64,000 bases of DNA from Gammaproteobacteria bacterium (GTDB lineage: Bacteria; Pseudomonadota; Gammaproteobacteria; HTCC5015), in assembly GCA_013817245.1 (NCBI GenBank), contig JACDDA010000001.1:124001-188000 (forward strand), given 5' to 3'. This document shows positions 711 to 36,335 of this stretch, in pieces. Every line of letters starts with the position of its first letter. The stretch's first letter is position 1. The notes under the pieces were generated by a model, which had not been told where the DNA came from, did no database searches, and saw only the letters and a list, made by a program, of their open reading frames with translations. A program made the translations under genes and the position numbers.

Positions 711-718
711 AACATTAC

Positions 719-1936: not shown

Positions 1937-2151
1937 TAGCTACATTTATCCTAGATAGCATCCCATCCACAAACAGATAGGCCACCAACTTTCTTATAAA
2001 TTCCCTGCAACCACATCGGGCATTAGGACCAAGCCGCGCAGTTTACCAAAAATGCTTCCTACAGGTGCCGCAAATTCTCAGGTTCTGCTGTTTCTTTCGT
2101 TCCCGTCAAATACAAAGCGGGATAGCCGACACATCAGATTACTGGCTCCTA

Positions 2152-2157
2152 TATAAT
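2152..2157 (+). promoter_or_regulatory. Candidate -10 box for uvrA
   Basis: A consensus TATAAT lies 27 bp before the uvrA ATG. No good -35 hexamer sits 16-18 bp upstream. I found no CTGT-N8-ACAG LexA box in the uvrA/MFS intergenic region, although uvrA is SOS-controlled in E. coli. Confidence 0.4.
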
Positions 2158-2183
2158 GTCGCGTTTATGTAGTCTGGAAGCTT

Positions 2184-5009: not shown

Positions 5010-5047
5010 GCAATGACCTTTACTGACTCACTGATAATATATTGCTT

Positions 5048-5524
5048 ATGACGCCATTAGATCAACAAGCTAAATTAGCCTTTCGACATTTTGCACACTC
5101 AGTGCACATTGTTACTGCGGTTAAAAACAATGGCGCACGACATGCCATGACCGCAACATCAATTACTTCATTATCGATGACGCCGCCATCATTATTAATC
5201 TGTGTCAATCGTCAAGGCGGCTTACATCAAGCTATTGAAGAAAGCGGTCAATTTTGCGTTAACACACTCAACCCAACACAACAGTCACTGGCTGATGATT
5301 GCGCATGGGGCGCAGAAGGCGAAGCCCGTTTTCAACAAGGCGAATGGCTTATGCGTCACGATTTACCCTTTTTACAACATGCGCAAACTAATATTTTCTG
5401 CAAGGCCGAAAGCTCGCTATGTTATGCTAGCCATAGTATTTTTATCGGGCGTATTATCGAAATTGTTATCGCACCCCAACTTGATCCTTTGATGTATTTG
5501 GATGGGACTTATTTTGTTAGATAA
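5048..5524 (+). CDS. Flavin reductase-like domain protein
   Basis: About 158 residues, the usual size of single-domain HpaC-type flavin reductases. These reduce free FMN or FAD with NAD(P)H, often for a partner monooxygenase. The N-terminal FRHFAHSVHIVTA, the SITSLSMTPPSLLICVN strand and FCVNTL match the family fold. ATG at 5048 is preferred; an in-frame TTG six bases earlier is possible. It follows uvrA by 38 bp and precedes the E1 alpha gene by about 50 bp, so all may share a transcript. No monooxygenase lies beside it, so the physiological partner is unknown. Confidence 0.8.
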   Translation: MTPLDQQAKLAFRHFAHSVHIVTAVKNNGARHAMTATSITSLSMTPPSLLICVNRQGGLHQAIEESGQFCVNTLNPTQQSLADDCAWGAEGEARFQQGEWLMRHDLPFLQHAQTNIFCKAESSLCYASHSIFIGRIIEIVIAPQLDPLMYLDGTYFVR

Positions 5525-5571
5525 TTTCCAGCATCCTATTTTAAATTGTTATAGTGCAACTGCATAATCCT

Positions 5572-6684
5572 ATGAGCATAAGCAAACTTAATACGTTTTC
5601 TGAGTGCAAATCAGTTGCACACTTTAATATAAACTTCATTCAATATCTAAATGAAGACGGCCAACTCTGTGCCGAAGCACCGGCATTTTGTCATGACAAA
5701 ATCTTGATGCTATCTTTATATCGCGCTATCAAATTACTGCACTTATTTGATCTTAAAGTACTCAACCTGCATCGCGCGGGACAAATGGGTACTTACACTG
5801 GAACCCTCGGTCAAGAAGCTGTGGGTATAGGCGCCGCAAGCTGTTTAACGGACAACGATGTGTTTGTACCTTATTATCGCAGCGCACCTGATCTTTATTG
5901 GCGTGGCGTCAAACTACATGAAATTTTAATGTACTGGGGCGGTGATGAACGCGGTTCAGATTTTGCGGATCCCCGTTTAATAAATGATTTTCCTATTCCC
6001 ATAGTTATTGCGAGCCAACTATTGCACGCGGCCGGCGTTGCTAGCGCAATTAAATTGCGCCAACAAAAAAATCGCGCTGTCTTAACTTTAGTCGGTGATG
6101 GTGGTACCTCAGAAGGTGATTTTTACGAAGCGCTTAATGTCGCAGGCGCGTGGCAATTACCATTGGTTATTATCATTAACAATAATCGCTGGGCTTTATC
6201 TGAACCAAATACTCGACAAACTGCTTGCCAAACCTTAGCGCAAAAAGCGATTGCCGGTGGTATTGAAGGCGTACAAGTTGACGGTAACGATGTGATTGCT
6301 ATGCGCGCAGTTACTGAAGCGGCGCTCGCCAAAGCGCGTGCCGGTGGTGGTGCAACATTAATCGAAGCACTAACCTATCGTTTATGTGCGCATACCACTA
6401 TCGATGATGCGACACGTTATGTTGCTAGCGAAGAATTAGATCAAGCATGGCAGCGCGAACCTTTAAAGCGCTTAAAAACGTGGTTAATAACAAATGAAAT
6501 GTTAGATGCGGCTCAAGATGCTAACTTAGAAATTGAATGTCGTGCTGAAGTAGAACGCGAAGTTGAGATATTCTTAAACATGCCGATCCAAGCGCCCACT
6601 GCTATTTTTGATTTTCTATATGCGGAATTACCGGAACGCTTATTGAGTCAACGCGATGATGTCATCAAACATCGAGGCTCATAA
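5572..6684 (+). CDS. 2-oxoacid (pyruvate-type) dehydrogenase E1 component, alpha subunit
   Basis: About 370 residues. This is the thiamine diphosphate-dependent decarboxylase alpha chain of a heterotetrameric E1. The TPP/Mg motif GDGGTSEGDFYEALNVAG ends in the expected asparagines (IIINNN), and the MGTYTGTLGQEAVGIGAA region is typical. ATG at 5572 is chosen; an in-frame GTG at 5554 would add six residues and neither has a clear Shine-Dalgarno. It is followed after 3 bp by E1 beta and then E2, so this is one operon. The heterotetrameric E1 differs from the AceE homodimer of enterobacteria. Pyruvate or branched-chain 2-oxoacids are possible substrates; sequence alone does not decide. Confidence 0.9.
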   Translation: MSISKLNTFSECKSVAHFNINFIQYLNEDGQLCAEAPAFCHDKILMLSLYRAIKLLHLFDLKVLNLHRAGQMGTYTGTLGQEAVGIGAASCLTDNDVFVPYYRSAPDLYWRGVKLHEILMYWGGDERGSDFADPRLINDFPIPIVIASQLLHAAGVASAIKLRQQKNRAVLTLVGDGGTSEGDFYEALNVAGAWQLPLVIIINNNRWALSEPNTRQTACQTLAQKAIAGGIEGVQVDGNDVIAMRAVTEAALAKARAGGGATLIEALTYRLCAHTTIDDATRYVASEELDQAWQREPLKRLKTWLITNEMLDAAQDANLEIECRAEVEREVEIFLNMPIQAPTAIFDFLYAELPERLLSQRDDVIKHRGS

Positions 6685-21474: not shown

Positions 21475-22122
21475 TTATCGCACTACAGCTTTAACAGCTG
21501 GATGAACAATCACATGACCACCAGGCGCGCCTGGAACCGAACCTTTAATTAACAACAAGCCGCGCTCAAGATCTACGCGCACAACTTCAAGATTTTGCGT
21601 TGTGACCTGCTCATTACCCATTTGACCAGCCATTTTCTTACCCTTAAATACACGACCCGGGCTTTGATTTTGGCCAGTAGAACCTGCTGCACGATGAGAA
21701 CGTGAGTTACCATGTGTCGCATCTTGCATACTGAAGTTGTAACGTTTAATTACACCTTGGAAACCTTTACCTTTTGAGATGCCAGTGACATCTACTACTT
21801 GACCCGCTTGGAACAGGTCAACTTTGATCTCTGAGCCTGCTTGCAAGTCAGCACCTTCGTCGCCATTCAAACGAAATTCCCACATGCCCAAACCAGCTTC
21901 TACACCTGCTTTAGCATAATGACCCGCTAAAGCTTTAGTTACACGACTAGCACGACGTGATCCGCGCGTTACTTGCACAGCGCGATAACCATCAACATCC
22001 GGCGTTTTAACTTGCGTTACGTGATTGCTACCAACCTCAATCACTGTCACAGGTAACGAGGCACCGTCTTCAATGAAGACGCGCGTCATACCTGCTTTAC
22101 GACCTACTAAACCAATTGCCAT
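21475..22122 (-). CDS. rplC: 50S ribosomal protein L3
   Basis: 215 residues (E. coli 209), starting [20 protein letters not shown] and with the signature [20 protein letters not shown]; this glutamine region is the PrmB methylation site in E. coli. The gene is preceded by an unusually long 321-bp gap after rpsJ, described separately. Confidence 0.99.
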
Positions 22123-22337
22123 AACCTGTTACCCGGTATTCAATCCAAGCACAAAAAGCGGGCTGACTCATAAGATATCAGCGACTATCAAACAGGGTCA
22201 TCATTTAAAGCGTAAAAACCAGCCGGAGCATCCTATAGGAGCACCTGACCGGGAAGCCGGAAAATGATGTCGCAATATCTGCGACCTGTAGCCAATCGCG
22301 TAACCGCTGATTGGGAGGCATTTCAACCCCTGGAACG
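22123..22337 (-). promoter_or_regulatory. Structured leader of rplC, possible ribosomal-protein autoregulatory element
   Basis: About 215 nt between the candidate promoter and rplC. Read on the minus strand it can form several hairpins. CCAATC...GATTGG encloses an 11-nt loop; GTCGCA-GATAT-TGCGAC is a 6-bp stem; TCC-TATA-GGA lies inside flanking CCGG pairs and is followed by GGTTTTT; further on is CTGA...TCAG. There is no convincing ORF. This much secondary structure before a ribosomal operon suggests feedback control, as known for the L4-responsive S10 leader of E. coli. I cannot match it to that leader by eye. Confidence 0.45.
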
Positions 22338-22343
22338 GCGCGA

Positions 22344-22372
22344 ATCTTAGCCAGTTCCGATCTTATTTGCAA
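22344..22372 (-). promoter_or_regulatory. Candidate promoter for rplC and downstream S10 operon genes
   Basis: On the minus strand a -35 TTGCAA (22367-22372) is separated by 17 bp from a -10 TAAGAT (22344-22349). The -10 is followed by the GC-rich stretch TCGCGCCG, typical of stringently controlled promoters. It lies inside the rpsJ-rplC gap. Confidence 0.5.
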
Positions 22373-22414
22373 AGGAAAATTACAACTTTTTGCAAAAAAC
22401 TTAAACATTCACAA

Positions 22415-22435
22415 GGGCAGCGGTGAACGCTGCCC
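22415..22435 (-). terminator. Hairpin after rpsJ, possible terminator or attenuator
   Basis: Perfect 8-bp GC-rich stem GGGCAGCG / CGCTGCCC with a 5-nt loop, beginning about 9 bp after the rpsJ stop. It is followed on the transcript by a U-rich stretch that only starts after ~9 nt, so it could be a weak terminator, an mRNA 3'-end stabiliser or a processing site. Confidence 0.55.
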
Positions 22436-22443
22436 GCGTAAAC

Positions 22444-22761
22444 TTAATTCAACTTAATTTGTACGTCTACACCAGCTGCTAAATCCAACTTCATCAAAGC
22501 ATCAACCGTTTTATCAGTAGGCTCAATGATGTCCATCAAACGCTTGTGTGTACGTATTTCGTACTGATCACGCGCATCTTTATCAGCATGAGGTGACACC
22601 AAAATAGTGAAACGCTCTTTCTTAGTCGGCAATGGAATTGGACCATGCACTCGAGCGCCAGTACGTTTTGCGGTTTCCACGATTTCTTGAGCCGAACGAT
22701 CAATTAAACGATGATCGAACGCTTTCAAGCGAATCCGGATAGTTTGAGCTTTCTTTGCCAT
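22444..22761 (-). CDS. rpsJ: 30S ribosomal protein S10
   Basis: 105 residues (E. coli 103), with [20 protein letters not shown] and [20 protein letters not shown]. It is both a 30S head protein and, as NusE, a transcription antitermination factor. It starts only 20 bp after the tuf stop, so it is co-transcribed with tuf. It is separated from rplC by 321 bp, the reverse of the usual spacing. Confidence 0.99.
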
Positions 22762-22781
22762 TAATTAAGACTCCGGTTCCC

Positions 22782-23972
22782 TTACAAAATAATTTTCGCA
22801 ACGACACCCGCGCCGACGGTACGACCGCCTTCACGAATAGCAAAGCGCAGACCGTCTTCCATTGCAATTGGGTTGATCAAGGTAATGGTCAATCCAATGT
22901 TGTCGCCGGGCATAACCATTTCAGTGCCAGAAGGCAGGTCAACAGCGCCGGTAACGTCGGTGGTACGGAAGTAGAACTGCGGACGATAGCCGTTAAAGAA
23001 CGGGGTATGACGACCGCCTTCTTCTTTCGATAATACGTACACTTCGGCTTCAAACTTGGTGTGCGGTTTGATGGTGCCGGGTTTGCATAATACTTGACCA
23101 CGTTCAACGTCATCGCGCTTGGTGCCGCGCAATAACACGCCAACGTTGTCACCTGCGCGACCTTCGTCGAGCAGTTTGCGGAACATTTCTACGCCGGTCA
23201 CGATGGTTTTTTGGACGTCGCGGATACCGACGATTTCAATTTCTTCGCCGACTTTAACAATACCGCGATCAATACGACCGGTCACAACGGTGCCACGACC
23301 CGAGATAGAGAAAACGTCTTCGATAGGCATTAAGAACGGTAAATCAACAGCGCGTTCTGGGATCGGGATGTACGAATCCATGGCCGCAACTAAACGTTCA
23401 ATCGCAGGAACACCAATTTCAGAGGTGTCGCCTTCGAGGGCTTTTAACGCAGAGCCGGTCACAATCGGGGTATCGTCGCCAGGGAAGTTGTAGCTGGTGA
23501 GCAGGTCACGCACTTCCATTTCAACGAGTTCGAGTAGTTCGGCGTCATCGACCATGTCGGCTTTGTTTAAGAACACGACAATATAAGGTACGCCGACTTG
23601 GCGAGATAACAGGATGTGTTCACGGGTTTGCGGCATAGGGCCGTCAGCCGCAGAACACACTAAAATAGCGCCGTCCATTTGCGCAGCACCGGTGATCATG
23701 TTTTTAACATAGTCAGCATGGCCGGGGCAGTCTACGTGGGCGTAGTGGCGGTTTTCAGATTCGTATTCAACGTGCGCGGTAGCAATGGTGATACCACGGG
23801 CGCGTTCTTCAGGGGCAGCGTCAATTTGGTCGTAGGCTTTGAATTCACCACCGTATTTCTGCGCCATGACTTTCGTCAATGCGGCAGTTAAGGTGGTTTT
23901 GCCATGATCCACGTGACCAATGGTGCCCACATTGATATGCGGCTTTTTTCTTTCAAATTTACTTTTAGACAT
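22782..23972 (-). CDS. tuf: Elongation factor Tu
   Basis: 396 residues. GTP-binding motifs are GHVDHGKTT (G1), DCPGHADY (G3) and NKAD (G4). It delivers aminoacyl-tRNA to the ribosome. Third codon positions are visibly richer in G/C than in neighbouring genes, as expected for very high expression. Upstream neighbours are tRNA-Thr, tRNA-Gly and tRNA-Tyr (a tufB-type context); downstream is rpsJ (a tufA-type context). rpsL, rpsG and fusA are not adjacent. A second tuf copy elsewhere is likely but unseen. Confidence 0.99.
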
Positions 23973-24126
23973 GACGGCTACCTGCTGCTCTCATTATTTA
24001 AAATTAACTCAAAAAACAAATTTCAAGTTGCTTGCTCTCCGAAGCTTATCTTCAGAGAATTTTTCACAAAGCCACGCGCACTTTTCACAACACTTTCATA
24101 ACGCGAGCACTGCACTAACATCTAAA

Positions 24127-24202
<76 letters not shown>

Positions 24203-24373
24203 CCTGACGGCTTGAGCCGACACGTCAGCTCACCCTCGCTCAGCGGAACTCAGCGTAGGCTGGCTCAGCTTGCTTCGAGCCATTTGCCTTGCTAATCAAA
24301 AACTTACCTCACAACACCCCAGCTCATCGAATCCCTAATAACACGCGGCTATCAGAGAAAAAACGCAGCACAT

Positions 24374-24447
<74 letters not shown>

Positions 24448-24596
24448 TTGGGGCAAAACTCAGGACAACCTACAGCAACAAACAAACTCTGCAACTCGTC
24501 TCTGGCAATACACGTACTTCACCAGATATGTACAACACATTTACAACTTTGCTCTCGGTTCTCCACCGCAACCCTCAAAACTAAGGCTGATCAGAC

Positions 24597-24682
24597 TGGT
24601 GGAGGGGGTAGGATTCGAACCTACGAAGGCATAAGCCGACAAATTTACAGTCTGTTCCCGTTGGCCGCTTGGGTACCCCTCC
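24597..24682 (-). tRNA. tRNA-Tyr(GUA)
   Basis: 86 nt class II tRNA with encoded CCA, acceptor GGAGGGG / CCCCTCC, anticodon GTA in ACTGTAAAT, a long variable arm and T arm GGTTCGAATCC. First tRNA of the cluster, directly behind the promoter at 24699-24727. Confidence 0.98.
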
Positions 24683-24698
24683 GAAAAGCAAGGCGCGG

Positions 24699-24727
24699 AT
24701 TTTGCCCTAGCTAGCACCACACGTCAA
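24699..24727 (-). promoter_or_regulatory. Promoter of the tRNA-Tyr-Gly-Thr-tuf operon
   Basis: Minus strand: -35 TTGACG (24722-24727), 17-bp spacer, -10 CAAAAT (24699-24704), then the GC-rich discriminator CCGCGCC. The layout fits a stringent-type stable RNA promoter and lies 16 bp before tRNA-Tyr. Confidence 0.7.
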
Positions 24728-24963
24728 CAGACAAAATAAAGCAGTCGCTAGACAAAACCTAATGTTTTCAAGCGTTTGTTTAATTTTCTGTATTTAAAAA
24801 TCTATTTGCGATCAAGGCCTGCCGAATCGCGTAGTCGCATCGACCCGTTCACATAGCGACGCGCAGTTTACTCAACATCCGCTAAAAATCCACCGAATGA
24901 TGAGCTAAACGAAGCGCATGATCGGCCGCTAGCCTGACAACACTAATGTTTTGAGGTCATGGC

Positions 24964-25200
24964 ATGTCAGCAATCAATAAAACACCACAAGAAGGCGCGC
25001 AACATTCCATTAACGCCTTACATACTGCACTCATGGGACTTGCAAGTGATTTAGATGCACTCGAAAAAATGGCACTAGCCACACTCGACGGACATCCGCA
25101 CGCCGCCAGCAATTTACTTGAACAATGTTATGACATGAAAGCGCGCGTGCATGATGCGCTGATGGTGATTCAACAATTGAGCGATCAATTTAAAACGTAG
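24964..25200 (+). CDS. Small helical protein of unknown function
   Basis: 78 residues, with GAGGT placed 6-7 bases before ATG at 24964. The sequence is predicted mostly alpha-helical and soluble, without signal peptide or membrane segment. The C-terminal part NLLEQCYDMKARVHDALMVI recurs in a second small ORF at 25818-25967 (NLLQQSYDMKAQINDALRVI). The BLUF gene lies between the two copies. I recognise no family. It is the only larger plus-strand gene in the island. Confidence 0.65.
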   Translation: MSAINKTPQEGAQHSINALHTALMGLASDLDALEKMALATLDGHPHAASNLLEQCYDMKARVHDALMVIQQLSDQFKT

Positions 25201-25217
25201 CAATGCACCACGCTAAA

Positions 25218-25640
25218 CTACGATTTAATTTGCACCGAACGCTGCAATAATTCCAACAACAAATCTAACGCAGAATCTGGCGACATACTGTAGGGATCAA
25301 ATTTTCCATCCGTCGTATATTTAAACAACACTTCTTTATTAAAAATACCTTCACCAATATAACCCATGCGCCACTGACCAAACTGCCGTGACACAATCGG
25401 CTCGTAACGAATCATACAAGCATCTTCATGACGCTTATCCACCAAAATACGCGCATAAGCACGATTCACCGCACGACGCGGCCCTTCCAACAATTGCAAA
25501 AAATACGAACTGCTGAATAACAACACACCCGAAACATTATCGATCATGTTGTTTTGCTCAGATACTCGCAAAATATCCTTGATCACCGTGGCTTCAATAT
25601 TATTAGTCACACGCGAGGTATAAATCAGTCTTACCAACAT
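25218..25640 (-). CDS. BLUF-domain blue-light sensor protein
   Basis: 140 residues from ATG at 25640, chosen because GGAG lies 7 bases upstream; a longer frame to 25709 lacks such a site. A single BLUF domain covers residues 2-95. Flavin-binding and photocycle residues are all present: Tyr7 (LIYTS), Asn35 (DNVSGVLL), Gln49 (FLQLLEG), Trp90 and Met92 (QWRMGYIG). BLUF proteins sense blue light through FAD and act on a partner protein. No output domain is fused; the diguanylate cyclase downstream is one possible partner, by proximity only. Confidence 0.92.
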   Translation of the reverse strand: MLVRLIYTSRVTNNIEATVIKDILRVSEQNNMIDNVSGVLLFSSSYFLQLLEGPRRAVNRAYARILVDKRHEDACMIRYEPIVSRQFGQWRMGYIGEGIFNKEVLFKYTTDGKFDPYSMSPDSALDLLLELLQRSVQIKS

Positions 25641-25737
25641 AGCGATCTCCGAAAAGATAAACGACACAGCCAATCTAATCGGGTTTAGTGAAGAGCACAA
25701 CGTGAACAAAAGCTATACAGCAACACAACTCTCTTGT

Positions 25738-25754
25738 TTGATGCAGGGCATCAA
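25738..25754. promoter_or_regulatory. Perfect inverted repeat upstream of the BLUF gene
   Basis: TTGATGC-AGG-GCATCAA, a 7-bp perfect dyad about 100 bp before the BLUF start and about 65 bp before the 49-residue ORF at 25818. It could be an operator for either gene. No regulator can be named. Confidence 0.3.
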
Positions 25755-25817
25755 TAAGCGCAGCGCATTGCGGACGTATAATTTTTTCAGATTAGATGAA
25801 ACAAAATGATATCCAAC

Positions 25818-25967
25818 ATGCTTTTTTTAATAACAGAACAAAAGCGTTTCGCTCGTCGCTACGCAACTACAGCGATTAATTTATTACAACAATCTTACGA
25901 CATGAAAGCGCAAATCAATGATGCGCTGAGGGTGATTCAAAAATTGAACAAAAATTTGCGGGAGTAA
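25818..25967 (+). CDS. Short paralogue or remnant of the 24964 gene
   Basis: A 49-residue frame from ATG at 25818 to TAA at 25965-25967. Its last ~30 residues (INLLQQSYDMKAQINDALRV and on) align with the end of the 78-residue protein at 24964. The N-terminal half (MLFLITEQKRFARRY) does not match. It is best read as a truncated duplicate that could still be translated. No clear Shine-Dalgarno is visible. The DNA is also clearly similar over about 90 bp. Confidence 0.5.
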   Translation: MLFLITEQKRFARRYATTAINLLQQSYDMKAQINDALRVIQKLNKNLRE

Positions 25968-26109
25968 TTTTAAATCGCAAAAAAAGATATTAGTTAATAC
26001 AAGTTCTTTTCGAAGTGATCGTTAAAGCCGGCCAAGCCACTATCGATCACTGTTGGAATTTGAGAAACAAGCCCCTAACTAGGTGCTCGTTTTATCGGGG
26101 TAAGATCAA

Positions 26110-27450
26110 CTATTTTTCTGTTTTCTCGGATGTATCGTAAAAATACATCCGATTAGAACCGGATTTTTTAGCTTTATACATCGCCTGATCCGCGGCTTGC
26201 AGCAAAGCGACAGGAGAGGATGCGTCCTGAGGGTAAAGCGCGATCCCAATGCTGACGGAAATCTGGACCCGCTGTTGCGCGAGATGAAAGGGCACCGCAA
26301 GTGCATCAATAATAGTCTTGGCTACCAGCTCAACATCCGCGCGCAGCGTAGCGCCGGTGAGAATCACGGTAAATTCATCGCCGCCCAAGCGAGCAACCGT
26401 ATCATTCTCCCGAACACAATCAGTGAGGCGCTTTGCCATCTCAGACAATAATGAGTCCCCCACTTCATGGCCCAGCGAATCATTAACTTCTTTGAAACCA
26501 TCAAGATCCATGAAAAGTACGGAAACAGGTAGGCTACTGCGCTTTGCCTGTTTGACCTCCTGCTCCAGACGATCCAGAAAAAGACGTCTATTCGGCAACC
26601 CGGTTAAAAAGTCATGGTAGGCGTTGTACCAAATTTTTTCTTCGGCAAGCGCCTGCTCGGTAATATCCCGGGAAATGCAGACGGTCGCTTCGGTGTTTTG
26701 ATGCTCATCCAGCACGGGCGCAAGCAGATACTCGAATCTTTCACCCTTTCCAGAAGCAAAAGTGTGAACGAACTTGCCTCGGTAAGTGGACTGATCAGCA
26801 ATCACCTTTTCAAGATTGCGTTGAAAGTCTGAGGCGAACGAAAACCCGAGGTCAAAGGTGGATTTTCCGATTATCGCTCCGGGCTCCAGAGCGAAAAGAT
26901 CGGCAGTGGCCTTGTTGGCATAGATAAATCGGCCTTTGAGATCCAGCACATAAATCGGATCAGGCGATGCGACCAGAATCGCTCCGAACAACCGGGTTTC
27001 CATCTCCTTTACGATCGCATACTGCTCCAGCGATTCGGCAACGGCCTGGTCTATCGCTTCATGAAACCGAGTGAGATCTTCAAGCTGTTGGCCGGCAATC
27101 GTTGGATAAGCTTTCGTCCAGTGGGAAACCACGCTCGCGCGCAAAGCGCGAAACTCGGAAACGGTCTCAACAACGCTGAAGCCACTCGTTTGACGATCGC
27201 CACCGTGCACTTCTGCCCAAGATTCCTCCCCTTCTTTATGCTGACGGCCTTTCGATTTGGCGGCCTGTTGTGATTCACTCTGACGTGAATCGAGATCGTC
27301 AGCAATTTCTAGCAGCATATCTCTGGCGTGGTCGCGCAGCCCGCTCTTACTCATATACTTGGCAGAATGGATGGTTTTAGCAAAGGCTTCCCAATCCTGA
27401 AGAATCGGCTCTATCTCTGCTCGAATAAAATCAGCTAACCGCATATTCAT
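26110..27450 (-). CDS. PAS-GGDEF diguanylate cyclase with RsbRD-like N-terminal domain
   Basis: About 446 residues from ATG at 27450, chosen because AAGGA lies six bases upstream; a frame to 27570 has no such support. Domains in order: an RsbR/RsbRD-type helical sensor (RLADFIRAEIEPILQDWEAF, ~1-150), a PAS domain (SPDPIYVLDLKGRFIYANKA, ~165-280), and GGDEF (~300-446) with the active motif RLGGDEF and an RxxD inhibitory site (REND) five residues before it. It makes cyclic di-GMP from GTP with product feedback. GC content is visibly higher than in flanking genes, suggesting separate origin. No EAL domain. Confidence 0.92.
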   Translation of the reverse strand: MNMRLADFIRAEIEPILQDWEAFAKTIHSAKYMSKSGLRDHARDMLLEIADDLDSRQSESQQAAKSKGRQHKEGEESWAEVHGGDRQTSGFSVVETVSEFRALRASVVSHWTKAYPTIAGQQLEDLTRFHEAIDQAVAESLEQYAIVKEMETRLFGAILVASPDPIYVLDLKGRFIYANKATADLFALEPGAIIGKSTFDLGFSFASDFQRNLEKVIADQSTYRGKFVHTFASGKGERFEYLLAPVLDEHQNTEATVCISRDITEQALAEEKIWYNAYHDFLTGLPNRRLFLDRLEQEVKQAKRSSLPVSVLFMDLDGFKEVNDSLGHEVGDSLLSEMAKRLTDCVRENDTVARLGGDEFTVILTGATLRADVELVAKTIIDALAVPFHLAQQRVQISVSIGIALYPQDASSPVALLQAADQAMYKAKKSGSNRMYFYDTSEKTEK

Positions 27451-27868
27451 CTGCATTCCTTTGTCCCTCAATGAGAATAGCCTTAAAAGGGTCAGCTTAA
27501 AAGCAATGCTTCCCATCCCTTTATTCAGACTAACAAACTCTTTACTTTTTTTTAAATTAAATCGGGGCAAAACAGCTGCTATTTTTTGGCATCTACCAAA
27601 TGATCGGTTAGCGACAATACATGAAAGTAAACTTCCTATACATCATCTATAACTAGGTTTGCTTATCTAAATTCACTTCGAGCGTGCTTAAAAACTCACC
27701 CACCTGAAAATTAGTTTTACTCACCATTTGAAATGGTCGCTTTAATAACACGACCATTTAAATCAAACGCTGCTCGACTTTTAATTGATTCAAGATTTTA
27801 AATTAAAATATTAATTCTCAAATTTGTTAAAGGGATCAGCGCTCATAAATACCCGCATACTGAAAAGC
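27451..27868. other. Gene-free AT-rich spacer
   Basis: 418 bp between the diguanylate cyclase start and the YehS-like gene stop. It is strongly AT-rich with no convincing ORF or RNA. The only notable element is a copy of GTTAAAGGGATCA at 27826-27838, matching 12 of 13 bases with one at 29430-29442. Confidence 0.6.
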
Positions 27869-28399
27869 CTACGTGTTATTTTTTCTATAATGCTTTTCCA
27901 TTCCATCAAGAACATTACGTAGCAATTGATCCAAACATTCTCGATAGTGTTTATGGTCAGGGCGTCGAAATAAGGAGCTCAACTCATGCTTACTTAAAGT
28001 GAACTCACTCAGCTTAAGTATCTCAAGCAAATCATCTGCCTGTAGGTTTAGAGCGATTTTCAACTTCCGCAACACTATGTTGTTGGTCAAAATACGTTCA
28101 GGCTCTGGTGTGTCGTCACCTAAAGCACCTCTATTCTTTATGATCAGTCCATTTAAAAAGCGAGCAAGTTTTTCGTCTTCACACAAAACAAACCCAGCCT
28201 CATCTTCGCGCGCCAACCAAGTAGCCAGCTCTGCCTTATTTCCTTCATGCCCACCCAGTTTAAATAGTGAAAGCATAAGCTGATCGCTAAAATCAAAAAT
28301 ATAGCGCACTCGGCGCAAGATATCGTTATTGTTAATAATTAGTTCTCCTGTGTGATAGGGTTCAATGATAGAAATTTCAATTTGATGCCGCTGGGGCAT
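27869..28399 (-). CDS. YehS-like DUF1456 family protein
   Basis: 176 residues from ATG at 28399. From residue 22 on it aligns with E. coli YehS: NNNDILRRVRYI, WLAREDEAGF, FLNGLIIKNRG, PEPERILTNNIVLRKLKIAL and RRPDHKHYRECLDQLLRN. Two copies of the DUF1456 repeat are present; the molecular function is unknown. The first 21 residues have no counterpart. A strong AGGAG (28345-28349) sits 5 and 8 bases before two in-frame ATT codons exactly where homology begins, so translation may start at AUU. The ATG overlaps the attC-like site at 28396-28456. Confidence 0.85.
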   Translation of the reverse strand: MPQRHQIEISIIEPYHTGELIINNNDILRRVRYIFDFSDQLMLSLFKLGGHEGNKAELATWLAREDEAGFVLCEDEKLARFLNGLIIKNRGALGDDTPEPERILTNNIVLRKLKIALNLQADDLLEILKLSEFTLSKHELSSLFRRPDHKHYRECLDQLLRNVLDGMEKHYRKNNT

Positions 28400-28456
28400 G
28401 ACACTTGAATTCAGCCCGCCTCGATTTTTACGGTCAGGCGCAATGATTGGTTATAC
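28396..28456 (-). other. attC-like recombination site 1
   Basis: 61 bp on the minus strand running from GTATAAC (R''-like, 28450-28456) to GTCATGC (R'-like, 28396-28402). The 3' arm GGCGGGCTGAATTCAAG closely resembles the L' arm of integron attC sites. It aligns without gaps with the site at 28953-29013, 45 of 61 positions identical. The stop codon of the upstream gene lies within the R''-like box, a common cassette arrangement. Confidence 0.6.
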
Positions 28457-28942
28457 AGCTTTTAAACATAATAAATCTTTCTCGTGTTTTTCAGCTTCAC
28501 TAGTAATCTCATTTAAAGTTTCTTCCTTGATTTTTATTAAATCTACCAATGAAAGTATATCTACTTTACTATTGCCAATATACGAAATATTGGATTCATT
28601 TTTCATGGATTTATAATCTTGATTATTCTTAGGAGTTAAAATATCCACGTTACAAAAATTACATTTTATAGGTATTTGTTTTGCTGGTTTTTCAAGTTCA
28701 GAGGATTGCCATTTCACACTTATATGCATATTCGATAATGTGCGTATGACTTTTTCTCCATTTTCCTTTGTTGGATTAATAAGTAAATCTAGATCATTAA
28801 TTTCATCTAACTCTCGACACTTATAATATGCTGCTGCGACACTGCCAATTACTATAAAATCAACACCATTCCTAATCGCCGTTTCAAGGAATTGTTGGTT
28901 ATCACCGCGAATTACCAATCCACCCGTATCGTCGATGTTCAT
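28451..28942 (-). CDS. Nucleotidyltransferase-fold protein, probable cassette gene
   Basis: 163 residues. FIVIGSVAAAYY followed by EINDLDLLINP resembles the GS...DxD-type active site of minimal nucleotidyltransferases (AbiEii/MNT-like). A later acidic residue in CNVDILTP could be the third catalytic aspartate. The gene is AT-rich compared with housekeeping neighbours and is bracketed by two attC-like sites, its stop falling in one of them. There is no antitoxin-like partner next to it. The fold is likely; the activity is unknown. Confidence 0.65.
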   Translation of the reverse strand: MNIDDTGGLVIRGDNQQFLETAIRNGVDFIVIGSVAAAYYKCRELDEINDLDLLINPTKENGEKVIRTLSNMHISVKWQSSELEKPAKQIPIKCNFCNVDILTPKNNQDYKSMKNESNISYIGNSKVDILSLVDLIKIKEETLNEITSEAEKHEKDLLCLKAV

Positions 28943-28952
28943 TATTCAAACC

Positions 28953-29013
28953 GTATAACATGTGAATCCAGCCGGCCGTGCTTTTTACGGTCAGTTGGAA
29001 TGATTAGTTTTTG
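28953..29013 (-). other. attC-like recombination site 2
   Basis: 61 bp on the minus strand from CAAAAAC (R''-like, 29007-29013) to GTTATAC (R'-like, 28953-28959), with 3' arm GGCCGGCTGGATTCACAT. It has the same length as site 1 and shares AATCATT near the start, CTGACCGTAAAAA in the centre and GGCTG.ATTCA in the 3' arm. It begins within the end of the 29004 gene and ends 11 bp before the 28451-28942 start codon. Confidence 0.6.
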
Positions 29014-29396
29014 TTCCACAAGCTAAAAACACCCCGACGAATATAATTTATAGATATGGGAATAACTAAAAGCAATAGAATACTGATAGTATAAATTGCA
29101 ATATCTACTAGCTCTGAAGTGTTAACTCTAACCGATACATTACCCGAAGGTTTATATACACTTTTTAATATCTCTTCTATTCTATATGCATCCGAGTATT
29201 CGTTTTTTGATTGGGCATTTTTTATAGCGGTTAGGAGCTGTTCAGAGGTATATTCTTTTTCCGCATCTTCAATTACAACCCACGACTGTTCCCACGACTC
29301 AACTTTAAGCCATGCAATATATGTATTTGACATCAACACAATTAGCGCCAACAGCAAAAAGAGTAACGTAATTAGATTTATTGCTCGGTCGATCAT
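29004..29396 (-). CDS. Small two-helix membrane protein of unknown function, probable cassette gene
   Basis: 130 residues with a hydrophobic helix near each end (INLITLLFLLLALIVLM at ~7-23, IAIYTISILLLLVIPISINY at ~98-117). A polar segment of about 70 residues between them is rich in Glu and Lys. No family recognised. It is AT-rich. The start lies eight bases after the AGG of GTTAGGT, a heptamer that fits the integron R' consensus (29404-29410), so the recombination box may also supply the ribosome binding site. Confidence 0.6.
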   Translation of the reverse strand: MIDRAINLITLLFLLLALIVLMSNTYIAWLKVESWEQSWVVIEDAEKEYTSEQLLTAIKNAQSKNEYSDAYRIEEILKSVYKPSGNVSVRVNTSELVDIAIYTISILLLLVIPISINYIRRGVFSLWNKN

Positions 29397-29463
29397 ATTG
29401 ATTACCTAACGTTTTGATAAACGAAAAAAGTTAAAGGGGTCACAAACCGTAAAAGCGAGAACA

Positions 29464-30096
29464 TCACCACCACTCATTCCCACCTTTAAATTTCTCAATC
29501 CTCTGCGATTTTCTGCTGGGCGGATAATGATTCAATATTCCTGTTACTGATTTATTAATTAGTTTGACACGCTGCTGCTCATTCAACTGCTTCAATGTGT
29601 CACCTGAAAATTTTGCGTCGGCTCGGCCACGCCAAATTAATACTCTTGTTTGAGCATCAACGATATAAACCACTAAATTTGACCCAGCATAATCAACCAA
29701 ACGGAAATCTTTTTGCTGGGCATTGGAGCGGGTGGGTGCAGGTACAGATGCGCAATAAGAACAATTTTCATTATTATAAGAAACGTTAGGTGCTTGAAAA
29801 ACTTCTACGCTCTGAGCTTGCTTGTCCGCTATGAAATAACTTACCAAAATATCAGCATCTTCGAACGACGCACTAACAAAGCTCTTGGCCTCAAGCTGGC
29901 TTATTATTTCCTTTTCAAGCTCAACACTGACAGGCGTTTTTTTAACGGGGTGTGGATTAGCGGCTAGCGCTATTGCAAATTTTTTCTTATGAAGAAAATC
30001 AAAACCACTGACATATTCACTTTCCACATTGTAAGTAGTTGCACAACCACTTAATAAGAACAGCCACAACCAAAAGATTGGTTTTTTATTATTCAT
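29464..30096 (-). CDS. DUF4136-type lipoprotein
   Basis: 210 residues. The N-terminus has lysines, a hydrophobic stretch and the lipobox LSGC (cleavage before Cys18), so it is a lipoprotein, probably in the outer membrane. The body resembles DUF4136 proteins: a folded domain with SFVSASFEDADILVSYFI, DYAGSNLVVYIVDAQTRVLI and WRGRADAK. Function unknown. It is preceded by tRNA-Thr(UGU) after about 70 bp on the same strand. Confidence 0.75.
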   Translation of the reverse strand: MNNKKPIFWLWLFLLSGCATTYNVESEYVSGFDFLHKKKFAIALAANPHPVKKTPVSVELEKEIISQLEAKSFVSASFEDADILVSYFIADKQAQSVEVFQAPNVSYNNENCSYCASVPAPTRSNAQQKDFRLVDYAGSNLVVYIVDAQTRVLIWRGRADAKFSGDTLKQLNEQQRVKLINKSVTGILNHYPPSRKSQRIEKFKGGNEWW

Positions 30097-30168
30097 TTTT
30101 GGTCTCTTTTCTAAAACAAAAAATGCTAATTGATAAAAAATAGCGCCCTTACTTTAATATTATGAATA

Positions 30169-30244
30169 TGGAGCTGGTGATAGGATTCGAACCTACGACC
30201 TGCTGATTACAAATCAGCTGCTCTACCAACTGAGCTACACCAGC
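30169..30244 (-). tRNA. tRNA-Thr(UGU)
   Basis: 76 nt with encoded CCA. Acceptor GCTGGTG / CACCAGC, D arm AGCTCAGTTGGTAGAGC, anticodon TGT in the arm CTGATTTGTAATCAG, T arm GGTTCGAATCC. It lies upstream of tRNA-Tyr as in the Thr-Tyr-Gly-Thr-tufB clusters of other gammaproteobacteria, but 5.5 kb of accessory DNA now separates them. Confidence 0.98.
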
Positions 30245-30304
30245 TTAACGACACTTCTTTCTTCTTTTAAATGTGAGAGCCTTTAAAAGCACTTTCCCGT
30301 TTCA

Positions 30305-30615
30305 CTTACACTTTCAAAACGCCTTGTGTAGATATGCTACACAAATCAGCTGCTCTACCAACTGAGCTACACCAGCTTAACAACACTTACACTTTCAGAA
30401 CGCCTGCTGTAGATATGCTACACAAATCAGCTGCTCTACCCACTAAGCTACACCAGCCTAACAAACTTACACTTTCAAAAATCCTGTGTAGATATGCTAC
30501 ACAAATCAGCTGCTCTACCAAAGAACTACACCAGCCTAACAACAACTTACACTTTCAAAACGCCTTGTGTAGACATGCTACACAAATCAGCTGTTTTACC
30601 GAAGCCCCAGCCCAC
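30305..30615 (-). repeat. Four tandem ~80-bp units each containing the 5' half of tRNA-Thr(UGU)
   Basis: Units begin at 30305, 30386, 30466 and 30546 (periods 81, 80 and 80 bp). On the minus strand each unit has a short leader, the first ~36 nt of tRNA-Thr(UGU) up to the anticodon, then a hairpin TTGTGTAG-CATAT-CTACACAA and a TGAAAGTGTAAG tail. The 3' half of the tRNA is missing in all. The unit nearest the real gene (30305) is identical to it over the 36 nt (30341-30376); the furthest (30546) has lost most of the D-arm sequence, a gradient of decay. Nothing else occupies 30245-30680. Confidence 0.9.
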
Positions 30616-30680
30616 TACGGCGCGAATTGTAATGGATGCTTTAATTGGCCGCCAGCGCGTAACGATGAATTAATGGTTTT

Positions 30681-31556
30681 TTAATTGATCGGGCAATCAC
30701 GTGAGAGGCGTTGCAAATCGGGAATGCCTTCGGCGATTTCGCGCCAGCCATTTTCACTCAAGGGCGCGGTGGTTTCGCTGTAGTCCAGCCAATGAATTTC
30801 TTGTTCGCGATAACGCGTTTCCATAATCGGTTTAAAGCCATAACGTCGTACTGATGCCATGCGTTTAATAGCGCCGTCTTTTTGTCTGAATAAACCGAGG
30901 GAAATTCCGTTTTCTTTATCGGCTTCGTCGGTAATCACAAAATAGTCACGAATGTCATGCGTGGCTAATTGGGCAGCGGCTTCGGTGGCTTTATCACGTG
31001 AACCAAATGAGGGTAAATACACACGATAACCCGATTGTTCGCGTTCGACTTTCACGCGCTCATCCACTTTTAAACCTTTTTCACGTAGTTGACGGATGGC
31101 GTCTTTCGCAAATTGCGCATCACGAAATGGACCAATGGTGTAACACGCGCGTGCTACTGTGGTTTTGGTTGTTGGTTTTTCGCTGGGTTTTTCAATAGGT
31201 TTTGCATTGAGTTTGTCGGCAACAGAATTAACGGAATTTTCCGCCAGTTTCTCGCCTGGCTTCAGCGCTGCTTTATCCGTTGCTGTTTCTGCTGCGTTAA
31301 TCGCTGCATCATTATTCATGCTGCTCATGGGTGCTTCTAATAAATCAGCGCCCTGCGTTACTTCGGTAATCGGCGCGATCTCAGGCGTTGGTGTGACTGT
31401 TGCAGTATCGTTAATACGTTCGGATAACAACTGCAATTCTCGCTCGGGTGCAACGCTAGGCAATATTGTTTCCGCCGAATGCGGTTCTGGTTTTTGTACC
31501 CACCACAACAGCACTACTAAATTCGCTAATAATAAAACTAAGAATAAGCTTCGCAT
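30681..31556 (-). CDS. SPOR-domain membrane protein
   Basis: 291 residues: a short N-terminal membrane anchor (LFLVLLLANLVVLLWWV), a low-complexity linker rich in Ala, Glu, Pro and Thr (~25-135), and a SPOR-like domain beginning CYTIGPFRDAQFAKDAIRQL (~138-215), which in other proteins binds denuded peptidoglycan. The SPOR-birA-coaX neighbourhood is typical of Pseudomonas-like gammaproteobacteria. It overlaps the coaX end by 19 bp, so the three are one operon. Confidence 0.85.
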   Translation of the reverse strand: MRSLFLVLLLANLVVLLWWVQKPEPHSAETILPSVAPERELQLLSERINDTATVTPTPEIAPITEVTQGADLLEAPMSSMNNDAAINAAETATDKAALKPGEKLAENSVNSVADKLNAKPIEKPSEKPTTKTTVARACYTIGPFRDAQFAKDAIRQLREKGLKVDERVKVEREQSGYRVYLPSFGSRDKATEAAAQLATHDIRDYFVITDEADKENGISLGLFRQKDGAIKRMASVRRYGFKPIMETRYREQEIHWLDYSETTAPLSENGWREIAEGIPDLQRLSRDCPIN

Positions 31557-32314
31557 AAATTCGCTTCTGTAAGTTGCGCAGCGCCCAACAAGGTTAATGC
31601 CGGCATTATGACACAGTCTCGCGTTAAACCTGTGCGCAACAATTGTGCGTCACCGCCGGTTAATACACAGCTTAAGGTACTTGCTAACTGTTGTTCGGTT
31701 TGTTGCCACGTCCGTTCAATCAAGGCAATGGCGCTATTGAGAGTGCCATGTGCAATCGCAGCGTTCGTATTTTTCCCTAATGTTAAACCCGTTCCTTGCG
31801 CATCGGGTAATGCAGCAGTGCCTTGCGCTAACGCAGCGCGCATCATGTGAATACCCGGCACGATATAACCGCCGAGATGTTCGCCATCATTGCGCAACAC
31901 GTCTAAGGTCAAAGCAGTACCGGCATCCACAATCAAAACATGTGATTTAATAATGTGATGCGCGGCAATTAATGCTGCCCATCGATCCACGCCTAAGCGC
32001 GTGGGTTCTGCGTAAGCATTACGCACACCGCAAGCCTGCGCGCTACTTTTAACACAACAAACGCTAACGCCGCGTTGCTGCCACCATTGCGCAAGTTGTT
32101 GTACTAAGGAAATATTCGCAACGCTGACAATCGTTACGCTTTGTGGGTTTAATGTATTCCACCAATGCGAAAATAAAGTGGTATTTAATTCCGCGTGCAT
32201 GGCCGTAATCATCGGCGTGTTTAATGCGTCACCTGCTTGCCAACATGCCCACTTCAAGCGGCTGTTACCAATATCAATAATCAAACGTGCTGTGTTAGTT
32301 ATATTTTTGCTCAT
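31538..32314 (-). CDS. coaX: Type III pantothenate kinase
   Basis: 258 residues. It phosphorylates pantothenate in the first step of CoA synthesis. N-terminal phosphate-binding motif IDIGNSRLKWACW; further conserved blocks LGVDRWAALIAAHH and VLIVDAGTALTLDVL with catalytic aspartates. The start overlaps the birA stop by 4 bp. Type III enzymes are the usual form in Pseudomonas relatives. Confidence 0.95.
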   Translation of the reverse strand: MSKNITNTARLIIDIGNSRLKWACWQAGDALNTPMITAMHAELNTTLFSHWWNTLNPQSVTIVSVANISLVQQLAQWWQQRGVSVCCVKSSAQACGVRNAYAEPTRLGVDRWAALIAAHHIIKSHVLIVDAGTALTLDVLRNDGEHLGGYIVPGIHMMRAALAQGTAALPDAQGTGLTLGKNTNAAIAHGTLNSAIALIERTWQQTEQQLASTLSCVLTGGDAQLLRTGLTRDCVIMPALTLLGAAQLTEANLCEAYS

Positions 32315-33300
32315 GAATTAACTCGCACGCTGACTTCACCGGCCGTGACTTTTTTTATGCCATCAAACGTAGCAACACATAAAGCGCCTTGTTCATCCAC
32401 GCCTTGCGCAAGACCACTGAAGCTACGTTCGCCTTGTGAAATCTGAATCGTTTTATGTTGCAACACATCATAGTCAGGCCACGCCGATATAAAATCGACA
32501 AAACCATATTGCTCAAAGCGATGTAAGTTTTGCGCAAAACTATCCAGCAATGCAGCGCTTAATTGATTTCGCGAGTAGTTTTTTTGCGTGATGCTATATA
32601 AATCTGTCCACGCTTGTTCAATATTTTGCATTTCAGCATTCGCGCTAGCGGTAATATTTAAACCCACACCAATAACCACATCACTAGGACCATTTGCTTC
32701 CGCACTAAGATCAATCAAAATGCCGCCCAATTTAGCGCCATCGACCAATATATCATTTGGCCATTTTAGTCCTGCGCCAGACACGCCTTGCACACGCAAT
32801 ACATCAACCACCGCCATGCCGATAACTAAACTTAAACCCGCTAAATTCATCGGCGCTAATGCTAAGCGTGCCATATACGATAAAGCTAAACTTGCGCCCC
32901 ACGATGTGTGCCACACACGCCCGCGCCGACCACGACCTGCGCTTTGTTGTTCTGCTAAACAGACGTAATGTTTTTGCCAATCACTGATCTGCAACAGGCT
33001 ACGACGACGCAACAACTCGGCATTGGTTGAATCAACTTTATCTAAAATAATTAATTCTAATGGAACATTAAATTGTCGCGCCGCATGAATTTGTTCGGCA
33101 TCTAACGCTTCATAACGTTGCGCTAATTGATAACCGCGTCCGACGATCGCTTGAATCGGCACACCCTCGGCTTGCAAATGTTGAATATGTTTCCACACCG
33201 CCGCACGACTCATACCCAATTGCTCGCCTAACCAAGAACCAGAATAACAAGCACCATCCGCAAGGTGTTGCAATAACTGTTGGCGTAGCGCGGACTGCAT
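32311..33300 (-). CDS. birA: Biotin protein ligase / biotin operon repressor
   Basis: 329 residues. Residues ~1-60 form a winged helix (WLGEQLGMSRAAVWKHIQHL), so it may repress biotin genes as well as biotinylate acetyl-CoA carboxylase. The catalytic domain has the biotinyl-AMP loop SAGRGRRGRVWHTSWGASLA and GLKWPNDILVDGAKLGGIL. The C-terminal SH3-like domain is present. It starts just after the M61 peptidase stop and overlaps coaX by 4 bp. Confidence 0.96.
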   Translation of the reverse strand: MQSALRQQLLQHLADGACYSGSWLGEQLGMSRAAVWKHIQHLQAEGVPIQAIVGRGYQLAQRYEALDAEQIHAARQFNVPLELIILDKVDSTNAELLRRRSLLQISDWQKHYVCLAEQQSAGRGRRGRVWHTSWGASLALSYMARLALAPMNLAGLSLVIGMAVVDVLRVQGVSGAGLKWPNDILVDGAKLGGILIDLSAEANGPSDVVIGVGLNITASANAEMQNIEQAWTDLYSITQKNYSRNQLSAALLDSFAQNLHRFEQYGFVDFISAWPDYDVLQHKTIQISQGERSFSGLAQGVDEQGALCVATFDGIKKVTAGEVSVRVNS

Positions 33301-33303
33301 CTA

Positions 33304-35121
33304 TTATTGACCGTGCAACCAAACATGTCGGTGTTGCGCTAAAGACGTATCAGCAACATCGGCGATAAATAAATTACACGTATCCAATATCGGCGCCGCA
33401 ATCGTTAACTGGGTTTGACGCAGTTCATCGCGCCGAAAATAATGTACGTCTACTATTTTACCCGGCGCACTACGTTGCAAAATAGGCTCAACGCCGCGCG
33501 CATCTACGCGCCACGCATCCCAAGCAATGATCACATCACCGGCCGACAAACCTGCGACATGTGCGGCACGACCATTAAACACGTGCGTAATTTTCCAAGC
33601 ACCTTCACTCGCCTGAATACGCATGCCGACATCCGGCAACATGTTCATACTGGCATTTGCTTCACCATACGCGCCTTGGTCTTGCAAAGTTTGTGCTGCG
33701 CGACGTTGCATGGCGATGCCCACGCTGGATAACAAAGTAGAAAAATCTATTTCATCGGTGCTGTACAACCATGCATTTAACGCATTACTCAAGGCAGCGC
33801 CGCCTATTTCTAAAATAATTTCATCTATGCCGTTTTCTGGCACGCCTATCATTTGCGTACCATAACGCTGCCACAAACACCGCATTACTTCATCGAGGGA
33901 TTTTTTATTTTGTTGACGCAAGCTTAAATCTATCGCCAACGCGACTAAGGCGCCTTTGTTGTAATAACTAACAATGGCGTTCGGCGAATTTTCATCTTGT
34001 TTATAAAATTTTGTCCATGCATCAAAACTCGAATCAGTAACGCTTTGCACTTGTCGACCGGGCGCACGCCACAAGCGTGTAATATTGCGCGCCAATAATT
34101 CTAAATAACTTTCGTCGTTAATTAAGCCTGCGCGCAATAGCATCAAATCATCGTAGTAAGACGTAAAACCTTCGAACGCCCACAATAAGCGCGTGTAGTT
34201 TTCTTGTTGGAAATCATACGGCATGAACGCGGCAGGTTTGAGGCGCTTAACATTCCAGGTATGAAAATATTCATGACTACACAAACCCAAGAATTCGCGA
34301 TAGTTTTCCGAAACCGCGAGCTCGCCTACTAAGGGCAAATGTTTACGGCCGCATAACAAAGCGCATGACGCACGATGTTCTAAACCACCATAACCCTCTG
34401 TTAACACGGTCACTAAAAATAAATAACGCGATAAATCTGCGGGCGCAGCGCCCCAAAATTGTATTTGTTGTTCGCAGATGCGCTGCAAATCATCGCAGAC
34501 GCGTTGCGCATCAAATTCAATGCGGCCATTAATGACCAATTCATGCGGGATGCCGGCCACTGTAAATGACCAACGTCGTAATAAACCCATTTCAACAGGA
34601 TGATCAACTAATTCATCGTAATTAACTGCGTCGTATAAACCAAACCCAGCATCGGCAACGTTTAAGGATTTGCGCGACAAACTCGTTGCTACTTGCCACT
34701 GCGCATAGTGCAAACCAATAGGCGGCAATATTTCCAAGCTACAACTTTGCTGTTCTTTGCCATGCACACGTAAAAACACGCTGGTGCCATTAAAAAAACC
34801 ATGCGTGTCATCTAAGTGCGCGGCGCGCACGGACAAATCCCACGCATATACTTGATAAATAATCGTCAACGTTGCGCCAGCAATATTATCAATGCGCCAT
34901 GTATTTTTATCTTGCTTCTGTACAGACAGCGCATGACCATCGCTATGCACTTGCAGCGTCACAATATGTTTAGCAAATTCTCGCAGCATGTAACTACCGG
35001 GTATCCACGCGGGCAACGATACAACTTGTTGCAATTGCGCTTGCACAATCGTTAACCGAATTTCAAATAAATGCGCTGCCGGATCAATCGGCTGAATAAC
35101 GTAATGCACAGGATGCGTCAT
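33304..35121 (-). CDS. M61 family peptidase (glycyl aminopeptidase type) with PDZ domain
   Basis: About 605 residues from ATG at 35121 (a TTG eight codons upstream is possible). The N-terminal beta-rich domain is followed by the zinc site HEYFHTWNVKRLKP (HExxH) near residue 290, with the third zinc ligand expected in ALLWAFEGFTSYYDDLMLLR (Glu). A C-terminal PDZ domain spans ~500-580 (GMRIQASEGAWKITHVFNGR, AGDVIIAWDAWRVD). M61 enzymes cut N-terminal glycine or alanine. No signal peptide, so probably cytoplasmic. It lies 3 bp before birA. Confidence 0.92.
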   Translation of the reverse strand: MTHPVHYVIQPIDPAAHLFEIRLTIVQAQLQQVVSLPAWIPGSYMLREFAKHIVTLQVHSDGHALSVQKQDKNTWRIDNIAGATLTIIYQVYAWDLSVRAAHLDDTHGFFNGTSVFLRVHGKEQQSCSLEILPPIGLHYAQWQVATSLSRKSLNVADAGFGLYDAVNYDELVDHPVEMGLLRRWSFTVAGIPHELVINGRIEFDAQRVCDDLQRICEQQIQFWGAAPADLSRYLFLVTVLTEGYGGLEHRASCALLCGRKHLPLVGELAVSENYREFLGLCSHEYFHTWNVKRLKPAAFMPYDFQQENYTRLLWAFEGFTSYYDDLMLLRAGLINDESYLELLARNITRLWRAPGRQVQSVTDSSFDAWTKFYKQDENSPNAIVSYYNKGALVALAIDLSLRQQNKKSLDEVMRCLWQRYGTQMIGVPENGIDEIILEIGGAALSNALNAWLYSTDEIDFSTLLSSVGIAMQRRAAQTLQDQGAYGEANASMNMLPDVGMRIQASEGAWKITHVFNGRAAHVAGLSAGDVIIAWDAWRVDARGVEPILQRSAPGKIVDVHYFRRDELRQTQLTIAAPILDTCNLFIADVADTSLAQHRHVWLHGQ

Positions 35122-35168
35122 AAGTAGCTGCTTAGTTTTTTTCAATCAAAATCGAAGTAACAATAATG

Positions 35169-36335
35169 TTATGCGGATGGTAGTTCAATGTAGTCGGTAA
35201 CACGGTTACGGCCATTTTCTTTAGATGCGTATAACGCTGCGTCGGCGCAATTAACTAATTTGTCACCTAACTCTTGCGGCTCGCCGACAATTTGCGCCAA
35301 CGCTAAATGCGCCATACCAATTGAAACGGTGATAGGCACTTTGCTGTCGATAGTTAATTCGCAGGGATTTTTTTGCACTAAACTGCGCACTCGCTCTGCA
35401 ATATCGCGCATACCTTCAGGCGTTATTTCCGGCAAAATCACCGCAAATTCTTCACCGCCTAAACGCGCAAAAATATCGCAACTGCGCACCGCGCTCTGCA
35501 CTACTTTCGTTAAATGCACTAACACCCTATCACCGGCCGCGTGGCCATAGTGATCGTTAATGCTCTTGAAAAAATCGATATCAATATATAAACACGCAAC
35601 GCCATGACCTTGACGCTGGCCACGATTTAATTCTTCTTCCATACGTTTGAAAAAATAACGCCGATTATTTGCTGAAGTCAGTGGATCTCGTAACGTTAGT
35701 TGCTGCAAGTATTCCGTGTTGGCAACATTTTCAATCGCAATGCCCACTACTTCTGCGGCGCGACACAAAAAATCAGTGCTGATATCGGGCGTAAAACGTT
35801 GTTCGTCTTGACTACCAAAACTTAAAAATCCTGACAATAAACCATGCGCTTGTAACGGCAAAATTGCCACGCTACCTAATGCCAATTCTTTACGTGCGAC
35901 TGCTTTAGAAAAAAAGCGACCATGATCGGCTACATCAAATTTCGCTAAGCGCGGAATTTTGGCGTACGTCTCTAATGATTGAATCAACGCATAATCATTA
36001 ATAATACGAAAATTCTGGCGCACTAAACGCTCAAACTCACCGCGTCCATTAATTAAGCTTTCGAGAGTGTCACGAAAAATTTGCGCGGTGGAATCAGCGC
36101 CGTCAATTAACAACAACGACACTGTTTGTAATTCAAAGGTCTGTTTGTAGTCTTGCAATAACACACGGCATAGCTCCGCTATGCTAGGGGACTTTAATAA
36201 TTTTAATTCTAGATCTTGAAACGAGCGCAGCTTAGTTTCATTGCTGCGCGCTTGATCCATATATGTTTCCAATCGGTACTTAAGCCGACTGACGGATAAA
36301 TCATGTTCTGTCATGGGATCAACATCTCCACGCAT
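35169..36335 (-). CDS. GAF/DUF484-like GGDEF diguanylate cyclase
   Basis: 388 residues. Helical N-terminus (~10-50), a GAF/DUF484-like sensor (~50-215), then GGDEF (~220-385) with RLGGEEFAVIL and an intact RxxD inhibitory site (RSCD) five residues upstream. It probably makes cyclic di-GMP. ATG at 36314 is an alternative start with GGAG 11 bases upstream. The gene diverges from the nitroreductase and precedes the M61 peptidase. Confidence 0.92.
   Translation of the reverse strand: MRGDVDPMTEHDLSVSRLKYRLETYMDQARSNETKLRSFQDLELKLLKSPSIAELCRVLLQDYKQTFELQTVSLLLIDGADSTAQIFRDTLESLINGRGEFERLVRQNFRIINDYALIQSLETYAKIPRLAKFDVADHGRFFSKAVARKELALGSVAILPLQAHGLLSGFLSFGSQDEQRFTPDISTDFLCRAAEVVGIAIENVANTEYLQQLTLRDPLTSANNRRYFFKRMEEELNRGQRQGHGVACLYIDIDFFKSINDHYGHAAGDRVLVHLTKVVQSAVRSCDIFARLGGEEFAVILPEITPEGMRDIAERVRSLVQKNPCELTIDSKVPITVSIGMAHLALAQIVGEPQELGDKLVNCADAALYASKENGRNRVTDYIELPSA

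Follow-up and report, generated by a model that had tools for sequence, protein, structure and literature searches.

A probable decayed integrase-less cassette cluster between DUF4136 and DUF1456 genes in a gammaproteobacterial genome

Two kinds of described cassette arrangement come closest to the locus reported here. The first is the CALIN, which the portion of the IntegronFinder description drawn on here defines as a cluster of attC sites lacking an integron-integrase (PMC9024848). The second is the insertion of single cassettes at secondary, non-classical attG sites, as related in sections of two papers that cite this work (Loot et al. 2024, cited in PMC12901181 and PMC11023631). The same sections of one of these papers give the attC consensus, RYYYAAC for R'' and GTTRRRY for R', and place the integron crossover after the first G of R' (PMC12901181).

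In the stretch of DNA analyzed here (the window; 64,000 nucleotides), the region flanked by DUF4136 and DUF1456 genes very probably holds a small, decayed, integrase-less cassette cluster (CALIN) of two cassettes. A preliminary description had proposed attC-derived sites, a cassette organization, and an old cluster, a proposal borne out by matches to attC models, by boundary and R'' boxes that agree within cassette 2, and by a genome in which no integrase was found. The two 61-bp sites it described, both on the minus strand at 28953 to 29013 (site A) and 28396 to 28456 (site B), were recovered with an ungapped match of 45/61. Lying 557 bp apart on the same strand with no integrase nearby, they correspond to the CALIN criterion of at least two close attC sites, conditional on accepting decayed sites as attC. 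In an ungapped self-comparison of positions 22001 to 36000 (offsets 20 to 2999), background pairs reached 34 to 37 of 61, and just two further features attained the level of A and B: a tRNA-derived tandem repeat at about 30.3 kb, and a pair of stretches with an offset of 767 (about 25.1 and 25.9 kb). That pair is a 61-bp stretch repeated with 51/61 identity (about 25120 to 25180 and 25887 to 25947); it lies in two small ORFs whose proteins have similar ends. The tandem array (30303 to 30600) contains 3.7 copies of an 81-bp unit with 88% matches beside tRNA-Thr(TGT) at 30169 to 30244, and the 5' half of this tRNA is copied in every unit. BLAST and pattern searches of the genome itself recovered just the two sites, the remaining BLAST matches being short and weak; an exact pattern match at C4:120262 was rejected as an extra copy because it had no visible attC context.

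To score the sites, covariance models were built from other genomes of the same class. Integron integrases (TIGR02249) exceeded the cut-off in 136 of 369 such genomes, and the neighboring regions of some were used to harvest attC sites by geometry and pairing, yielding 48 sites with a score of at least 9.5 in 39 loci. At a score of at least 10, 47 were in the expected orientation and one in the opposite orientation, with none in shuffled sequences; three of the 48, all from locus L079, were later found to be in the wrong register. Model R1 was built from 13 sites and model R2 from 135 R1 matches in 33 loci, the window contributing to neither. With default filters, R1 found site A alone within the window (17.2 bits; E value, 0.062), and with filters off on 20 to 40 kb it ranked A (17.2 bits) and B (14.9 bits) first and second, followed by a match at 12.4 bits. 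The two best R2 matches in the window were exactly sites A and B, at 18.5 bits each over their full length (next, 12.2 bits). Hence the two sites come out on top in an attC-model check of the kind that the preliminary description had called for, and the absence of a match that it would have counted against itself was not observed. When R2 was run on 1,652,896 of the 2,271,746 bases of the genome (73%), A and B were the sole matches with an E value of 10 or less (1.5 and 1.6). Neither site appeared for this genome in a whole-genome attC search in which 150 of 299 candidates were scored. Both sites fit the attC model, with weak scores from a home-made model that lie at the low end for attC (18.5 bits, against 26.8 to 74.6 bits for the R2 training matches as scored by R1), and since A and B are related to each other, they are not independent matches. 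Their internal spacing, AAC-N14-GAC with L' starting 15 nucleotides before R', is the commonest spacing pair among the harvested sites (14/48). A likeness of the CAAAAAC of site A to the L079 sites was considered and rejected, because the R'' boxes of L079 lie further upstream (e.g., CATAAC) and its CAAAAAC is within the arm. L079 itself is, at positions 1 to 6000, an integron array with highly uniform attC sites (AACAAGTTCAAAAAC ... CCCGTTTTAAAGGCGTTA) and numerous small cassettes.

The R boxes are CAAAAAC (R'') and GTTATAC (R') in site A and GTATAAC (R'') and GTCATGC (R') in site B. As already pointed out in the preliminary description, they fail RYYYAAC/GTTRRRY; AAC is retained in both R'' boxes and GTT in one of the two R' boxes, and we therefore class the sites as decayed rather than canonical attC. 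GTTATAC is complementary to GTATAAC at all seven positions, as had been claimed, and because the crossover falls after the first G of R', these two boxes would have belonged to one cassette (cassette 2) once it was circular; the terminal six bases of site A, TTATAC, form the 5' end of this cassette. The 5' boundary of cassette 2 thus complements its own R'' at 7/7 positions. For cassette 1, the candidate outer 5' boundary is GTTAGGT (29404 to 29410, minus strand), which fits GTTRRRY and complements CAAAAAC at 3/7 positions (expected partner, ACCTAAC). GTTAGGT is present as described, but loose 7-mers of this kind are expected about once per 1,024 bases per strand, and it is a plausible though unconfirmed third boundary. 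In real arrays, 64 of 95 consecutive site pairs had 7/7 complementarity between a cassette's own boundary and its R''. Among the 79 pairs with differing neighboring R' boxes, the cassette's own box fitted better in 61 and the next one in 14, with 4 ties. This comparison may aid the recognition of other decayed cassettes.

Stop codons lie at both R'' boxes: TAA at 28451 to 28453 falls within the GTATAAC of site B, and TAA at 29004 to 29006 immediately follows the CAAAAAC of site A. Start codons had also been placed next to both sites; the ATG at 28942 is indeed about 11 nucleotides past site A, and the ATG at 28399, which overlaps the end of site B, is unlikely to be where its gene natively starts. 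These features bear on the possibility that the pair is a non-integron 61-bp repeat, MITE-like or regulatory, that was duplicated once and resembles attC by chance. Such an origin would suit the strong likeness of A and B, the genome-wide model E value of about 1.5, the off-consensus R boxes, and the lack of a nearby third copy proving an array. We consider it improbable, however, because the attC model matches all 61 bp from one end to the other with canonical spacing, because stop codons sit at the R'' boxes, and because a repeat would not predict the 7/7 agreement of the own-cassette R box, which with four free positions has a chance of about 1 in 256.

The three ORFs that had been noted share one strand (minus), and the cassette stretch is AT-rich, in line with a decayed cassette cluster. 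Positions 28402 to 29409 have a GC content of 33.9% compared with 44.1% for the window, and 0.16% of 1,008-bp windows are as low. The cassette 1 ORF (29004 to 29396, minus strand; 34.4% GC) encodes 130 amino acids of no known family, with probable membrane segments as judged by eye from the sequence. Its product had no Pfam match over the cut-off and none in NCBIfam or PADLOC. Among the 369 genomes of the class it matched its own genome and gave five weak matches, four of which lay within frames that were broken or much longer; these five were judged to be background rather than homologues. The cassette 2 ORF (28451 to 28942, minus strand; 30.9% GC; 23% GC3) encodes a nucleotidyltransferase-like protein of 163 amino acids with a G..D-x-D..D pattern that shows up when it is aligned with three distant relatives. 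These relatives give matches close to the cut-offs with DUF6036, AbiEii, or the aminoglycoside adenylyltransferase family, and cassette 2 itself exceeded no family cut-off in Pfam, NCBIfam, or PADLOC. No attC-model match was found near the distant relatives (four loci), cassette 2 was not found in plasmids or viral contigs, and a search of solved structures returned nothing convincing. Promoters and terminators were no more frequent than in shuffles, and Rfam matches were tRNAs only.

The flanks of the cluster are both intact, and the locus lies inside a 597-kb contig. On one side is a DUF4136 lipoprotein-like gene (29464 to 30096, minus strand; Pfam DUF4136, 8.3e-16) and on the other, downstream of the cassettes, a yehS-like DUF1456 gene (27869 to 28399, minus strand; Pfam DUF1456, 2.2e-51). 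The latter had been included among the cassettes, a placement that we reject: a relative in genome G003, from the same taxonomic family, aligns with it only from residue 21 and begins at the counterpart of codon 22, and no attC-model match follows the gene. On these grounds, the DUF1456 gene is probably chromosomal backbone rather than a third cassette. In the 28334 to 28399 interval, the position of the relative's ATG start is occupied by ATT in the window, and AGGAG closely precedes it. Judged from the sequence, translation would begin either at this ATT, a rare start codon, or at the ATG bordering site B, which would add about 21 residues; the native start is probably near 28336.

A search with TIGR02249 agrees with the earlier view of the cluster as integrase-less. 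No integron integrase exceeded the cut-off in the genome, and the locus is accordingly not a complete integron (intI plus attI). The six weak matches fell within three other tyrosine recombinases. Two of these appear to be XerC/XerD-like, and the third adjoins a presumably IS91-like transposase on a 3,140-bp contig (L003, G000:C15); this contig may be a stray one or represent a mobile element. Within the family, one of four genomes, G002, has an integrase match over the cut-off (C22:17119-17937, covering 2 to 275 of 315 positions). Its 40-kb integrase neighborhood contained no clear attC, and attC-like sites of a sequence type other than A and B occur on several of its contigs (L081, L083, L085, L087, L089, L090, L091, and L092). 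Sites of the attC kind are also present in G003, and together these matches indicate that the family has, or once had, integrons. An empty site was not found in relatives; the genus consists of this one genome, and the sole family relative with a DUF1456 gene (G003) has other genes upstream and so does not bear on the gene-order comparison that the preliminary description had proposed. Since no empty site was found, we infer the insertion history of the locus; the loss of activity is an inference too.

Folding of the bottom strands revealed that arm-to-arm pairing exceeded 198 of 200 shuffles for site A, 157 of 200 for site B (no better than 43 of 200), and 199 of 200 for the circle form of site B. 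The R box pairing probability of the cassette 2 site was 0.97 in the excised-circle form and 0.01 in place. All 81 real sites of similar length had stronger folding energies than A and B; relative to these sites, the arm pairing of A fell in the lower fifth and that of B in the lowest 3%. Unconstrained folding gave no excess stability over shuffles. Site B did not form a canonical stem, its L''/L' pairing being poor, and in the minimum-free-energy fold of A, mismatches and internal loops occupy the positions where single-base bulges are expected in the L''/L' stem. Of the predicted hairpin with extrahelical bases, a hairpin appears for A and weakly for B, and clear extrahelical bulges were not seen. 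A loop and the departure from the usual bulges are common to A and B, and the circle form of cassette 2 folds well, as might be expected of a distinct, lineage-private attC class in which mismatches replace the bulges and the R boxes deviate, still functional and with a divergent integrase that would be unsampled or would act on it in trans. The preliminary description had raised a distinct attC class; we regard this reading as highly improbable: the genome has no integrase over the cut-off, the site-type pattern had a single exact match in the genome_contigs collection (Citreicella; about chance level), and the sites of the family relative G002 are of another sequence type. Moreover, A and B deviate from the consensus differently from each other, as decay would give, and given this and their canonical geometry, a distinct attC class finds no support here.

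Collectively, these findings favor a decayed CALIN. An integron integrase, acting from elsewhere or later lost, would have inserted two cassettes between the DUF4136 and DUF1456 genes, one for a small protein of no known family and one for a nucleotidyltransferase-like protein, each with an attC site at its 3' end. GTTATAC would mark the boundary of cassette 2 and pair with its R'', GTATAAC, in the circle. With no integrase left, the sites would have drifted, giving the poor L''/L' pairing of B, the off-consensus R'' of A, and the last R', GTCATGC. Because the R boxes are eroded, as is the hairpin of site B, the downstream one, present-day mobility of the cassettes appears unlikely. Against a CALIN stand the genome-wide E values of only 1.5 and 1.6, the kinship of the two sites, the off-consensus R boxes, the weak folding, the 3/7 boundary of cassette 1, the lack of attC-model matches near the distant relatives of cassette 2, and the empty site that was not found. 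On balance, a 2.3-Mb genome without a detectable integrase would retain a fossil of cassette capture, one more case beside the thousands of CALINs already counted, of a well-known type and opening no new question.

The integron of G002 resembles this locus in belonging to the same taxonomic family and in its scattered attC sites, but it differs in having an integrase match over the cut-off and attC sites of another sequence type. Set against those parts of the published descriptions drawn on here, the locus is like a CALIN in having two same-orientation attC-like sites around small AT-rich genes with no integrase found, and unlike one in that its sites lie at the low end of attC scores with R boxes off consensus. 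As with attG insertions in the same sources, the cassettes lie in the chromosome away from an integron platform; in contrast to them, two cassettes stand in a row, the rejoined target would read G^TC, and no empty site was found. As far as these descriptions extend, the locus fits them except for its eroded R boxes.
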